From positions 62,001 through 126,000 of the forward strand of contig NZ_JADMNM010000002.1 in the NCBI RefSeq assembly GCF_016461955.1: a stretch of 64,000 nucleotides of DNA, in the 5' to 3' direction. Below are positions 20,645-62,337 of this stretch, piece after piece. Numbering within the stretch: the stretch's first letter is position 1; every line of letters starts with the position of its first letter. The position numbers and the translations under genes were made by a program. The DNA is from Qipengyuania sp. YIM B01966 (GTDB lineage: Bacteria > Pseudomonadota > Alphaproteobacteria > Sphingomonadales > Sphingomonadaceae). The notes beneath the pieces were generated by a model, which was not told the DNA's origin, made no database searches, and was given only the letters and a program-made list of their open reading frames with translations.

Positions 20645-22957
20645 ATGAGCCGTGTTTTTGCACCGCTGAAACATCTGGACGAACGCCTCCGCCACGCGCT
20701 TTGGGCGATCGGTCTGGCGGCGTTGGGCCTCCTGATGTCGCTGTTCGACCCGATAGACCAGCAAAGCTGGATGGCGCAGACCAGGCTGGTTTCTGAAGAT
20801 GCCTCGGGGCAGATCGTCCTTGCCGCTTCGGACGTGGATTTCACTGATCCGAACCGGCCGGAGCTTCGGACGCAGCTCGCCCGCGAGCTCGAACGTCTGG
20901 ATGCAGCCGGGGCAAGGCGCATTTTCATCGATGCCATATTCCAGCCTTCGGCCGACCCCGCAGCAGACCGTCATTTGAATGCAACGCTGCACAAGCTGGG
21001 CGAGCGCGTGTTTCTCGCCAAACGCAGCTACATGAATTACGATCGGCAGCGCACCTTCAGGCAATCCGCGGCTGTGGTAGCCCAAGGCGTGCCGCAAGTC
21101 GCCACCGAATACGAAGCCCGGTATCTCGGAATAGATTGGGACATGCCGTTTGCCCTGCGCGATGGCGAAAAGATGCTGCCGTCCTTGCCTGCCGCGCTGG
21201 CTGAGAGATCGGCCATCGAGGATTCGGCGTTCATCGTCGACTACAGTTTCAGGATTTCTTCAATTCCTGTTATTTCAATACTGAAGATCGACAACGCTAC
21301 GGTTAATCGCAGTGACGTTGCGGGTAGAGATGTAGTTATTGCATTGCAACCGATGGCAGGAGTTTTGCTTACCTCAACTCCGCGCACAGCGGACGTGCCG
21401 CATTCGATTATTCAGATTGTTGCAGCCGAAACTCTCCTCGCAGGCTATGAGGATGAATTCCCAGCTTTAGGTGGATTTGTCATCTGTTGCGTACTCCTGG
21501 TCGCGTCGATTCTGATTGGAAAGAAATTCGGTAATTCAGCACGTCGAACAGCCTACGCTACCGTCGTAACGATCATGGTGGCTTCGATCGTTGCAACCTA
21601 CTTCATTCATGTACGAACCTACCCGTCTCCAATTCTTGCGACTTTGACGCTTTATGCTGCAGCCAGATTACGAATACATTGGCAGCGCCGCTACGCTTTG
21701 GTAGATCAGGCAACCGGCCTGCCCACGTTCCGCGCATTCGAGCGCACTCTCCAGGAAGCCGGTGCCGCCAATCCTCTGGTGGCGGCAAGGGTTCATGGTG
21801 CTTCGCATTTGATGAAGGCGCTGAGCGCCGAGGATTTCGCCGAGTTCACAAACCGGCTCGTAGATCGCCTACGAGTGTCCGATACCGGTCCCACCATTTA
21901 TTCGAGCGACGGGCGCTACCTTGCGTGGGAGGCGCAGGAATCGGAGATCGAACAGATAAGTGCGCATCTCGAAGGCCTGCGGGCGGTGTGCGCAAGCCCG
22001 ATCATTGTGGGCCAAACCGAACTGGATGTCGCGATAACATTCGGGGTCAGCCATGCACCCGATCGGTCTGCTTCCGCGCGCATCGCCGCCGCTGTTGCAA
22101 CGGTCGAGCGCACCTCCACTTCGTCCGCTCCTATCGAGTTTGACCAGGACGGCGCAGATCGAGATGATCTGTGGGATCTTTCGTTGCAGTCGCGGATCGA
22201 CGCAGCTCTCGCGAATGACGAGATTAACCTCGTCTATCAGCCGAAGATGACTATCGATCGGACTGCGATTGTCGGCATCGAAGGTCTCGTCCGCTGGTAT
22301 GATCCGGAACGCGGTGAAATTCCACCATCGCATTTTATCGAACAATGCGAAGTTGCCGGGCGCATCACGCATCTCACCAGGTTCACGCTCGACAGGGCCA
22401 TGCGCGATGCAACATTGCTGGCAGCCCGCGGATTGATGATCCCCGTATCGGTGAACATCTCAGCGACCCTCCTGCGCGACGAGCGGGTCGTGATAATGGT
22501 AGCGGACGCTATTCAACGGATGCGCTTTCCGCCCGAACTGCTTTGTCTGGAAGTGACAGAGACGGCCCGGATTGCCGACCTTGACCGCGCGCATGGTGTA
22601 CTCGTCTCGCTAAAGGGACTGGGTGTTAAACTCTCGCTTGATGATTTCGGGGTGGGCGCAGCGAACATCGAAGTTCTCGCCAGCCTGCCATTTGACGAGA
22701 TCAAAATCGACCGCAGCTTCGTCGCTCAAATGCACACGTTGAAGGGGCGAGCGATCGTCGACAGCATGATCAGGCTTGGCGCGCTAGCGGGCATCGTGGT
22801 CGTCGCTGAAGGCGTGGAGAGCGACGAGACGCTGGCGCAATTGGCATTAATGTCGTGTCCGGTCGTGCAGGGTTATGGCGTATATCTGCCAAGCAAGATC
22901 GAACGTCTGATGGTCGAGCATGGATTTGCCATGAAATCAGTGTCTAACATGGTTTAA
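20645..22957 (+). CDS. CHASE2 sensor with degenerate GGDEF and EAL phosphodiesterase domain
   Basis: Membrane-bound c-di-GMP phosphodiesterase of 770 residues. After an N-terminal transmembrane helix (ALWAIGLAALGLLMSLF) comes an extracytoplasmic CHASE2 domain (about 40-255), further membrane helices (about 275-350), a GGDEF-like domain without the GGDEF signature (the region reads SSDGRYLAWEA), and a C-terminal EAL domain. The EAL residues look intact: EGLVRW, SVNIS, EVTETA, LDDFGVG, KIDRSF and AEGVES, so it should degrade c-di-GMP. Start is ATG at 20645; the frame is open further upstream but without family sequence. It stands alone after lpdA. Confidence 0.92.
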   Translation: MSRVFAPLKHLDERLRHALWAIGLAALGLLMSLFDPIDQQSWMAQTRLVSEDASGQIVLAASDVDFTDPNRPELRTQLARELERLDAAGARRIFIDAIFQPSADPAADRHLNATLHKLGERVFLAKRSYMNYDRQRTFRQSAAVVAQGVPQVATEYEARYLGIDWDMPFALRDGEKMLPSLPAALAERSAIEDSAFIVDYSFRISSIPVISILKIDNATVNRSDVAGRDVVIALQPMAGVLLTSTPRTADVPHSIIQIVAAETLLAGYEDEFPALGGFVICCVLLVASILIGKKFGNSARRTAYATVVTIMVASIVATYFIHVRTYPSPILATLTLYAAARLRIHWQRRYALVDQATGLPTFRAFERTLQEAGAANPLVAARVHGASHLMKALSAEDFAEFTNRLVDRLRVSDTGPTIYSSDGRYLAWEAQESEIEQISAHLEGLRAVCASPIIVGQTELDVAITFGVSHAPDRSASARIAAAVATVERTSTSSAPIEFDQDGADRDDLWDLSLQSRIDAALANDEINLVYQPKMTIDRTAIVGIEGLVRWYDPERGEIPPSHFIEQCEVAGRITHLTRFTLDRAMRDATLLAARGLMIPVSVNISATLLRDERVVIMVADAIQRMRFPPELLCLEVTETARIADLDRAHGVLVSLKGLGVKLSLDDFGVGAANIEVLASLPFDEIKIDRSFVAQMHTLKGRAIVDSMIRLGALAGIVVVAEGVESDETLAQLALMSCPVVQGYGVYLPSKIERLMVEHGFAMKSVSNMV

Positions 22958-22959
22958 GC

Positions 22960-22988
22960 TTTACAAACTTTTATGGTTAACGCATGGT
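22960..22988 (+). promoter_or_regulatory. Candidate promoter of the 17-codon gene
   Basis: TTTACA (22960-22965) and CATGGT (22983-22988) are separated by 17 bases, directly after the stop of the EAL gene and in a locally AT-rich stretch. The -35 matches consensus at five of six positions; the -10 is poor. This is suggestive only; transcript-end mapping would decide. Confidence 0.3.
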
Positions 22989-22989
22989 A

Positions 22990-23007
22990 CTCCTGCACCA
23001 ACAGGAG
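22990..23007 (+). promoter_or_regulatory. Hairpin that hides the Shine-Dalgarno sequence of the micro-gene
   Basis: CTCCTG (22990-22995) is complementary to CAGGAG (23002-23007) with a 6-base loop CACCAA. The right arm is most of the ribosome-binding site AGGAGG (23003-23008), so the folded RNA would block initiation at the ATG at 23015. Such a short 6-pair stem could respond to temperature, a protein or an sRNA, or be opened by ribosomes at no cost. The pairing is seen; the regulation is inference. Confidence 0.5.
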
Positions 23008-23014
23008 GCTTATC

Positions 23015-23068
23015 ATGTTCAACATCTGGGATTGGTGGTTCGGCCGTGGCGGCCGTGACTCCAAGTGA
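23015..23068 (+). CDS. Trp-rich 17-residue micro-protein
   Basis: The reading frame encodes MFNIWDWWFGRGGRDSK. Evidence that it is real: a perfect AGGAGG ribosome-binding site 6 bases before the ATG, an independent Rho-independent terminator 8 bases after the stop, and its own AT-rich leader. The peptide has an aromatic N-terminal half with three Trp and a charged Gly/Arg tail, which would suit membrane-surface binding. I do not recognise a family. It lies between the EAL phosphodiesterase gene and a convergent tRNA-Ser. It could also be the coding part of a dual-function small RNA. Confidence 0.6.
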   Translation: MFNIWDWWFGRGGRDSK

Positions 23069-23076
23069 TTGAAAAA

Positions 23077-23100
23077 GGGCTCCTTTTGGAGCCCTTTTTT
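23077..23100 (+). terminator. Rho-independent terminator of the micro-gene
   Basis: GGGCTCC (23077-23083), loop TTTT, GGAGCCC (23088-23094), then six T residues; five A residues precede the stem, so it could also work for the convergent tRNA-Ser transcript. This is the most canonical intrinsic terminator in the window. Confidence 0.92.
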
Positions 23101-23112
23101 AGCGCAACGCGA

Positions 23113-23202
23113 TGGCGGACAGGGTGGGATTCGAACCCACGGTAAGCTTGCGCCCACGGCGGTTTTCAAGACCGCTGCCTTAAACCACTCGGCCACCTGT
23201 CC
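23113..23202 (-). tRNA. tRNA-Ser (anticodon UGA)
   Basis: A 90-base serine tRNA with its CCA end encoded. The acceptor stem GGACAGG pairs with CCTGTCC, followed by discriminator G and CCA. The D arm begins TGGCCGAGTGG, the anticodon stem-loop GCGGT-CTTGAAA-ACCGC exposes TGA, a long variable arm typical of class II tRNAs follows, and the T loop reads GTTCGAATC. It reads UCN codons, mainly UCA and UCG. It converges on the micro-gene terminator. Confidence 0.97.
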
Positions 23203-23306
23203 TCAAGCGAGCGGGTAGCGCCAGCGATCAGCGTTGTCACGCTTGCAGAGAACGCGCCAGCGCATAAAGGGTGGCTCTTTGTGCTCGCTTTGCTAGCAAG
23301 AACCGC

Positions 23307-24323
23307 ATGACAATGGTTGTACGCGCGCTGGTCACCTTCGCGTCTGCTAGTTTTCTGGCAGCGACTCCCGCTACGGCGCAGGACTTTCAAAGCTACCTCC
23401 GCTCGCTTGCCGAACAGGCGCGCGCTGAAGGTGTCAGCGACGCGACCATCCGTCGGATGACAACTGGCCTTACCCCAAACCAGCGGGTAATCGAACTTGA
23501 TCAAACCCAGCCTGGGTCGGGCGGCGCGCCGGGCACCTTTCCCCGGCTGGCACCTTATCTGGCGACTCATGTGGATGCTGCGCGCATCGCTGGCGGCAAG
23601 CGAATGATGTCATCGCTCGCGGGCGCGGCTGCGCAGATCGAGCGTCAATACGGGGTTCCGCGCCAGATCTTGTTCGCTATCTGGGGACATGAGACCAATT
23701 ACGGCGCGTACAGGGGCAATTTCGACCTTGCCCGTTCCCTGGCTACTCTCGCTTGGGAAGGCCGACGGCGGGAATTGTTCGCGCGCGAATTCGTCGATTT
23801 GCTGAAAGTTGCGGACCGAGGATATGCGCGGGAACAGTTGGTGGGCAGCTGGGCCGGCGCGTTTGGCAACCCGCAATTTTTGCCCAGCGTTTATCTTCGT
23901 CTGGCCACAGACGGTGATGGCGATGGTCGGGCCAACATTTTCACCAACGGCCCGGATACTTTAGCCTCGATTGCCAATTATTTTCGCGATGCCGGCTGGC
24001 GCGCCGGCCAGCCCTGGGGGGTCCGCGTCAGCCTGTCGGCCGGCGCTGTGCCGCCGGGTCTGAGCCACCGCATGATCTCGCCCGCATGCCCGCGTGTGCA
24101 TGTCCGCCACAGCCAGTGGCGGACTGTGCGCGAATGGCGTGATCTGGGCGTGCAACCACAGCGAAGCATTGGCGACGATGTCATGGCATCGCTGTTCCAA
24201 CCCGATGGCCCCGGCACGCCGGCGTGGCTGCTCACAGCGAATTACCGAGCAATTCTCGAATACAACTGTTCCAACTATTACGCGATGAGCGTGGGCTTGC
24301 TTGCGGACGAGATCGCGGGTTGA
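23307..24323 (+). CDS. Lytic murein transglycosylase, MltB family (GH103)
   Basis: Periplasmic enzyme that cleaves peptidoglycan between MurNAc and GlcNAc with anhydro-sugar formation. It starts with a signal peptide (MVVRALVTFASASFLAATPATA). The catalytic glutamate lies in FAIWGHETNYGAY, and the family motif GSWAGAFGNPQFLPS, the Asp-rich loop DGDGDGRANIF and IANYFRDAGWRAGQPWG follow. No lipobox is seen, so it is soluble rather than a lipoprotein. The start at 23307 gives 338 residues with a clean signal peptide. It is followed 91 bases later by dacA, another peptidoglycan enzyme. Confidence 0.93.
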   Translation: MTMVVRALVTFASASFLAATPATAQDFQSYLRSLAEQARAEGVSDATIRRMTTGLTPNQRVIELDQTQPGSGGAPGTFPRLAPYLATHVDAARIAGGKRMMSSLAGAAAQIERQYGVPRQILFAIWGHETNYGAYRGNFDLARSLATLAWEGRRRELFAREFVDLLKVADRGYAREQLVGSWAGAFGNPQFLPSVYLRLATDGDGDGRANIFTNGPDTLASIANYFRDAGWRAGQPWGVRVSLSAGAVPPGLSHRMISPACPRVHVRHSQWRTVREWRDLGVQPQRSIGDDVMASLFQPDGPGTPAWLLTANYRAILEYNCSNYYAMSVGLLADEIAG

Positions 24324-61221: not shown

Positions 61222-62337
61222 ATGGCTGATCTGTTTGATAATCCCCTTGGCCTCGACGGGTTTGAGTTCGTCGAGTTTTCGGCGCCCGAAAAAGGCGTGC
61301 TGGAACCCGTGTTCACCCAGATGGGCTTCTCGCTGGTGGCGCGCCACCGGTCAAAAGAGGTGCAATTGTGGCGTCAGGGCGGGATCAACCTGATCGCCAA
61401 TTACGAGCCCAAAAGCCCGGCAGCATTTTTCGCGGCCGAACACGGCCCGTCGGCCTGCGGCATGGGCTTTCGCGTGCGCGATGCCGCCGATGCCTATGCC
61501 AAGGCGCTCGAGCGCGGGGCAGAGCCGGCTGAAAGCCGCACCGGGCCGATGGAACTGCGCATCCCGGCGATCCGCGGGATCGGCCATTCACTGATCTATC
61601 TGATCGACCGCTATGAAGGGTCGGCCAAGGGCGACCTGTCAATCTACGACATCGATTTCGAGTACGAGCCGGGGGTGGATCGGCACCCCGTCGGCGCCGG
61701 AATGAAGGTGATCGATCACCTGACGCACAATGTCTATTGCGGGCGCATGGCCCATTGGGCCGCATTTTACGAGCGCATCTTCAACTTCCGTGAAATCCGC
61801 TATTTCGACATCAAGGGCGAATATACCGGCCTCACCTCCAAGGCGATGACCGCGCCGGACGGCAAGATCCGCATTCCACTGAACGAGGAGGGCGCCAGCG
61901 GCGGCGGGCAGATCGAGGAATATCTGCGCGAATATAACGGCGAAGGCATCCAGCACATCGCACTCGCCAGCGACGATCTCTACACCAGCTGGGATCAGCT
62001 CAAGGCGCTGGGCGTGCCGTTCGCTTCAAGCCCGCCCGACACCTATTACGAGATGATCGATGACCGCCTGCCCGGCCATGGTGAGCCGGTGGCCGAATTG
62101 CAGCAACGCGGTATCCTGCTTGATGGCTCGACCGCTGACGGCGATCCGCGCCTGCTGCTGCAGATTTTCGGCCAGACGGTGATCGGCCCGGTGTTCTTCG
62201 AATTCATCCAGCGCAAGAAGGATGAGGGGTTCGGGGAAGGCAATTTCACCGCCCTGTTCAAGTCCATCGAAGCCGATCAGTTGAAGCGCGGCGCGCTTGC
62301 CGGTGCCGGCGCGAAGGCGACGGAGGACGCCCAATGA
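61222..62337 (+). CDS. hppD: 4-hydroxyphenylpyruvate dioxygenase
   Basis: Non-haem iron(II) dioxygenase converting 4-hydroxyphenylpyruvate to homogentisate in tyrosine breakdown. Two vicinal-oxygen-chelate repeats are present, and the iron ligands appear in [10 protein letters not shown] (His), [11 protein letters not shown] (His) and [11 protein letters not shown] (Glu). [20 protein letters not shown] at 61222 is the family start; the frame is open back to 61171. 371 residues. A VOC protein is coupled by an ATGA overlap. No homogentisate dioxygenase is in the window. Confidence 0.95.

Follow-up and report, generated by a model that had tools for sequence, protein, structure and literature searches.

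Directly behind a c-di-GMP phosphodiesterase gene of Qipengyuania sp. YIM B01966 lies an open reading frame of only 17 codons, and the question it raises is whether so short a frame is a gene and, if so, what its product might act on. The frame was noted from the sequence alone in the window, i.e., the whole stretch of 64,000 nucleotides analysed here (contig NZ_JADMNM010000002.1, forward positions 62,001 to 126,000). The features of the locus, in window coordinates, are as follows.

20645-22957, plus strand: gene of a CHASE2 - degenerate GGDEF - EAL c-di-GMP phosphodiesterase (Pfam CHASE2 4.9e-8, EAL 2.5e-53)
22949-22982, plus strand: conserved DNA block ATGGTTTAAGCTTTACAAACTTTTATGGTTAACG, overlapping the enzyme stop codon; probable promoter or regulatory region
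22955-22957, plus strand: stop codon TAA of the enzyme (EAL) gene, read from the sequence; the next base, 22958, is the first of the feature under study
22984-23017, plus strand: 5' leader hairpin (sequence, folding and subgroup statistics)
22990-23007, plus strand: inner stem of this hairpin, CTCCTG (22990-22995), loop CACCAA and CAGGAG (23002-23007), from the sequence
within 22984-23017, plus strand: outer stem CATGGTA / TATCATG, from the minimum-energy fold
23003-23008, plus strand: Shine-Dalgarno (SD) site AGGAGG, six bases before the ATG
23015-23068, plus strand: micro-ORF MFNIWDWWFGRGGRDSK, Trp-rich micropeptide family member (ATG at 23015, 17 codons, TGA at 23066-23068)
23072-23076: A5 tract before the terminator, from the sequence
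23077-23100, plus strand: intrinsic terminator GGGCTCC-TTTT-GGAGCCC (23077-23094) followed by T6, eight bases after the ORF stop, from the sequence
23113-23202, minus strand: convergent tRNA-Ser(TGA), which does not consistently accompany the micropeptide family

The spacing of SD site, 17-codon frame and terminator given in the original prediction was confirmed base by base, and the pairing of AGGAGG with the upstream CTCCTG holds both in the sequence and by folding. The enzyme product comprises 770 amino acids from the start at 20645 (20525 is the beginning of a longer frame); hydrophobic segments follow the CHASE2 domain, and the GGDEF motif is not intact. Preceded by A5 and followed by T6, the terminator is bidirectional and can thus also act on the minus strand for tRNA-Ser. 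This one symmetric hairpin (23072-23100) probably ends the transcripts of both the micro-gene and the convergent tRNA-Ser(TGA). Being symmetric and facing a tRNA gene, the terminator alone would not prove a separate unit. A simple consensus scan of the window reported neither a sigma-70 promoter nor a terminator for the micro-gene, the latter being plain in the sequence, and Rfam matched only the tRNA at this locus. A lytic transglycosylase (SLT_2) gene comes after the tRNA (23271-24323) and is not consistently found beside the micro-gene either.

The micropeptide family and its coding character

Three independent searches, starting from the peptide motif, the upstream DNA block and the neighbouring enzyme, converge on the same locus type, in which a Trp-rich peptide of 11-41 amino acids is encoded immediately 3' of a CHASE2-EAL phosphodiesterase gene. 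A codon search for WDW-x-FG in 397 genomes of the bacterial family yielded tiny ORFs of the same anatomy, such as MGRSIWDWLFGRGGQRG and MRKVNRPARGFWDWLFGDGNAGGRN. When 84,980 species were scanned for [FI]WDW-x-FG, 65 stretches were obtained, among which the tiny-ORF matches with this anatomy all belong to Sphingomonadales (genera include Aurantiacibacter, Altererythrobacter, Sphingobium, Sphingosinicella, Parasphingopyxis and Sphingorhabdus), the remaining stretches being portions of long frames or chance frames. The block-only search (TTTACAAA-N6-TGGTTAAYG, one mismatch permitted) matched 27 of 249 family genomes, compared to five matches of a reversed control pattern, and nearly all block matches are followed next by a Trp-rich micro-ORF. 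Peptides beyond the reach of the peptide search were obtained in this way: MYLSIWDWIFN (11 amino acids), MWDIWEWIFRS, MEWSWFWEWVFN and MFRIWRWFFSDD, as well as MWNFWEWLLGDGHRKR, a further micro-ORF of different sequence. In total, 92 distinct peptides were collected (11-41 amino acids, median 16, with 2.4 Trp each); the usual length is 11-17 amino acids, with a core resembling I/F-W-D-W-L/I-F-G. On the sequence evidence, the frame in the window belongs, as one copy, to a family of tiny real genes of 11-41 codons that had not been listed before.

The substitution pattern within this family points to selection on the peptide. Pairwise counts, which pool related sequences and carry no correction for phylogeny, amount to a pS of 0.765 and a pN of 0.238 over 71 distinct core DNA sequences, and to 0.647 and 0.101, respectively, in 19 close members. 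Amino-acid change is thus strongly suppressed in the true frame (pN/pS 0.16-0.31), which bears out the synonymous substitution bias that had been suggested as a check, whereas reading this DNA in its two other frames yields ~0.94 and ~1.8. As judged from these counts, the micro-ORF is a conserved protein-coding gene under purifying selection, and this selection acts on the peptide and not merely on its Trp codons. The peptide is presumably produced in cells. The original prediction of a micro-protein gene is borne out by peptide conservation, purifying selection and linkage to one enzyme clade; a peptide not conserved in relatives, which it had named as the outcome that would count against it, did not occur. 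It was also right that usual ORF cut-offs miss such a frame, this being a genuine selected gene absent from ordinary annotation.

Other searches returned little. No further copies of the micro-gene were found in the source genome, a plasmid search with a 38-aa relative gave no match, and Pfam and NCBIfam had no match for seven relatives of 24-38 amino acids (the window peptide is shorter than the 20-aa limit). A DNA similarity search of family genomes with the whole leader produced mostly chance matches and one informative locus, L007. In the open-access literature, neither the peptide nor the peptide-enzyme pair was found described, an absence that does not prove novelty. Matches of the FIIWDRMFG type, which flooded a two-mismatch motif search, were discarded as an unrelated motif. 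A Trp-free peptide, VIDLIAIALGSRRGS, with a GTG start occurs at L186/L189, where block and SD hairpin are retained. At L180 and L181, fragments that look like the 3' end of tRNA-Ser (GGCGGACAGGGTG) are found ~100-200 nt past the micro-ORF with no obvious whole tRNA in the stretch, perhaps as a relic of integration at tRNA-Ser. Similar words also occur inside large proteins. A PBP1A-like protein of an alphaproteobacterial MAG (L149, ~669 codons before the motif) carries PRGGFWDWLFGGG in a tail rich in Pro and Gln. This word is similar to the micropeptide core RPVRGFWDWLFGG, which may reflect convergence or a common binding motif. Flavobacterial proteins (L098, L110, L117, L129 and L151) have GFWDWLFGD within longer frames, beside an acidic stretch.

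Linkage to one phosphodiesterase clade

In every locus found through the peptide or the block, the upstream co-directional neighbour is homologous and ~770 amino acids long (53 loci in one cluster); at L134 the enzyme was confirmed by tblastn and at L127 it is cut off by the end of the stretch. The reverse approach gives the same picture. With its first 480 residues as the query, the enzyme was sought in 199 family genomes and 95 downstream regions were retrieved, and a tree of the C-terminal part of the enzyme separates 75 orthologs, the window included, from 21 paralogs with a support of 0.974. A micro-ORF is present behind 73 of the 75 orthologs and behind none of the 21 paralogs, as assessed by an automatic rule plus inspection. 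For 12 of the 73, acceptance depended on inspection, as they have a longer distance, a weaker Trp pattern or, at L189, no Trp at all. One unchanged rule was therefore applied to the two clades alike: Trp-x-Trp within 400 nt occurs behind 63/74 orthologs versus 0/21 paralogs, and an aromatic pair behind 69/74 versus 0/21. An ATG-started Trp-x-Trp micro-ORF with an SD site follows 41 of the 49 best enzyme orthologs, compared to 0.5% of shuffled downstream regions. Orthologs with a micro-ORF cover at least 39 sphingomonad genera, and among 192 genomes sampled from the class, only two weak matches to the enzyme query lay outside the family. Two orthologs, L224 and L232, lack the micro-ORF. A transposase-like frame stands where the micro-gene is expected downstream of the ortholog at L224 (G121).

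The original prediction took the unit to be self-contained. This part does not stand: in no case did the micro-ORF stand alone, its position being invariably 3' of this CHASE2-EAL gene, so that a bicistronic transcript and one of its own are equally possible. The eight EAL catalytic residues are retained in 75/75 orthologs, and the paralogs have the same domains and all catalytic residues, yet no peptide. Since the partner is constant, its catalytic residues are intact in all orthologs and the peptide is absent behind the paralogs, the likeliest role of the peptide, as suggested by this linkage, would be that of a partner or modulator of the adjacent phosphodiesterase.

The downstream side is different: neighbours there fall into many unrelated groups in both orientations. 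This bears on the idea of a trpL-type attenuator leader peptide, in which ribosome stalling at Trp codons would control the downstream gene. A Trp-rich frame of ~14-17 codons closely before a terminator does recall trpL (PMC7298713), but the downstream gene is not conserved and often convergent, the next gene in the window being a minus-strand tRNA and no trp gene. Moreover, the Trp residues are mostly separated by D, E, N, S, R or K instead of lying side by side. F, L and G are conserved in the core as well, whereas synonymous positions change freely. With nothing constant downstream, an attenuator is highly improbable.

A second idea that builds on linkage is that the peptide is an exported signal that the neighbouring enzyme senses through its CHASE2 domain, the two forming a signal-receptor module. 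CHASE2 is a putative extracytoplasmic sensor domain; it is kept beside the peptide, and genes of peptides and their receptors are often adjacent. The peptide, however, has no signal sequence, no exporter gene is in constant linkage, and the shortest members are little more than the core, which makes export as a signal very unlikely.

Transcription signals and the leader hairpin

Several signals surround the micro-ORF. The block ATGGTTTAAGCTTTACAAACTTTTATGGTTAACG contains ATGGTTAA, the reverse complement of the CtrA half-site TTAACCAT (site definition from PMC6180460 and PMC3692519), and Sphingomonadales retain the CckA-ChpT-CtrA relay (PMC2877005). Compared to shuffles that preserved single-base composition only, the half-site occurs on either strand in 27/60 enzyme-to-ORF intervals versus 0.19 in the (mononucleotide) shuffles, GTTAA/TTAAC words number 152 in these intervals versus 15 expected, and a terminator follows the micro-ORF in 76/82 family members versus 6%. 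The full TTAA-N7-TTAAC site is missing in most members. These words suggest CtrA as a regulator of the micro-gene. Readings of the locus as a mere terminator or a mere tRNA end were rejected, as terminators also follow the ORF in relatives without the tRNA.

The position of these signals could also be read as a 3'-UTR device of the phosphodiesterase mRNA, which serves its end, stability or translation coupling and in which the peptide itself is functionless. The micro-ORF is indeed always directly behind the enzyme gene, with a block that overlaps the enzyme stop and a terminator after it. Nonetheless, the amino-acid sequence is under purifying selection, the distance to the enzyme gene ranges from ~50 to more than 350 nt, and the CtrA half-sites suggest a separate promoter. 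A functionless peptide in such a device is accordingly unlikely, although this and an RNA role are the main rivals to a modulator of the enzyme.

The leader itself is strongly structured. The 145-nt stretch folds at -57.4 kcal/mol (z of -5.4 versus dinucleotide shuffles), and in the minimum-energy fold of the window copy CATGGTA pairs with TATCATG, so that the start codon is hidden along with the SD site. Among the members with a short gap (n = 42), the SD pairing probability is 0.88 versus 0.64 in shuffled sequences and the leader fold reaches -11.5 versus -5.1 kcal/mol, while the spacing between SD core and ATG is nearly constant in this subgroup (6-9). When left and right leader halves were swapped between members, 0 of 2000 permutations folded as well as the native set, which means that the arms have co-evolved. 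Covariation is weak in a fixed-register alignment, as the helix slides along the SD site from relative to relative. Both the calculation and the co-evolution of the arms show that the SD site is locked in a hairpin in the short-gap subgroup. The hairpin is not universal, since it is not significant in members with long N-termini. A thermosensor, implied by the earlier proposal to probe the RNA at different temperatures, is unlikely: by nearest-neighbour calculation only, the probability of an open SD site is 0.11-0.16 from 15 to 70 °C, and a stem that stays closed up to 70 °C speaks against an RNA thermometer.

Sequestration of the SD site in front of a small aromatic peptide is typical of type I toxins, and the micro-gene might be the toxin of a type I toxin-antitoxin pair, i.e., a small hydrophobic peptide whose SD site is locked in the mRNA. 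Such sequestration is observed here. Rfam gave no antitoxin at the locus, where the minus-strand gene is the tRNA-Ser that meets the shared terminator. The genome, however, has just one copy of the micro-gene, and an overlapping gene for an antisense RNA is not recognisable. Peptides of 11-17 amino acids with an acidic residue between the Trps are also too short for a membrane span, and the linkage to one enzyme clade is steady; we regard a toxin as very improbable.

The RNA could also be the active species. In a dual-function small RNA, as put forward in the original prediction, the 3'-end transcript would act in trans with the peptide as an accessory, in the manner of rnTrpL/peTrpL. Small RNAs commonly derive from the 3' ends of mRNAs, and the anatomy of a transcription unit of ~110-130 nt with a stable hairpin and a terminator would suit this role. 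No RNA sequence conservation is seen, however, besides hairpin pairing, ORF and terminator, there is no Rfam match, and selection acts on codons. An RNA acting in trans is therefore rather unlikely, if somewhat less so than the other alternatives.

Proposed role and comparison with known systems

The observations are best explained jointly, and in our judgement probably, by a fixed two-gene module of peptide and CHASE2-EAL enzyme with CtrA-type control, an SD lock in a subgroup, and a terminator. In such a module, the Trp-rich peptide gene would be paired with the phosphodiesterase gene just upstream, and the CtrA-type block at the end of the enzyme gene probably drives or co-drives expression of the micro-gene. 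In the Aurantiacibacter/Erythrobacter-like subgroup, the window included, the stem over the SD site would restrain translation, and transcription would end at the terminator just behind the micro-ORF. The phosphodiesterase may be the target or the partner of the peptide, which would most likely be interfacial, at the membrane surface, and tune or place this membrane-anchored enzyme. The most specific version, in which a genetically encoded peptide of as few as 11 residues sets the activity or position of a dedicated sphingomonad phosphodiesterase and is released from a locked mRNA under CtrA cell-cycle control, is possible but still doubtful.

If true, the module would be a peptide-effector pair for second-messenger signalling over at least 39 genera, and its micropeptide genes would be among the shortest conserved bacterial genes. 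To our knowledge, hardly any conserved bacterial proteins of 11-17 residues have been described, since annotation and homology tools discard frames of this size. Should the peptide modulate the enzyme, this would represent a new way of controlling c-di-GMP. The linkage to a single orthologous phosphodiesterase clade, with none behind the paralogs, offers a concrete and testable partner, and the enzyme-anchored search a route to other ultra-short genes via synteny instead of sequence.

MgrB, AcrZ and KdpF are single-span membrane proteins of roughly 29-50 amino acids that modulate a large membrane protein. The micropeptides resemble them as tiny conserved proteins tied to one large membrane protein, here by gene linkage, but many count only 11-17 amino acids, too short for a membrane span. 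As in RNA thermometers and type I toxin mRNAs, the SD site is base-paired in a 5' hairpin; the stem of the micro-gene differs in that it is perfect and closed to 70 °C in calculation, and its register slides between relatives. The leader hairpin corresponds to no known motif and has no Rfam match. With CtrA-regulated genes of Alphaproteobacteria (PMC6180460, PMC3692519), the micro-gene shares TTAACCAT half-sites and repeated TTAA words before the gene. Finally, peTrpL / rnTrpL of Sinorhizobium meliloti comprises a Trp-containing peptide of 14 amino acids and a small terminator-ended RNA that acts in trans (PMC7298713). Both are alphaproteobacterial and encode a short Trp-containing peptide on a small terminator-ended unit. 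Yet, peTrpL is leaderless and stands at the head of the trpE(G) operon, whereas the micro-gene has no downstream operon, a hairpin-locked SD site and, as its constant upstream neighbour, a c-di-GMP phosphodiesterase gene.
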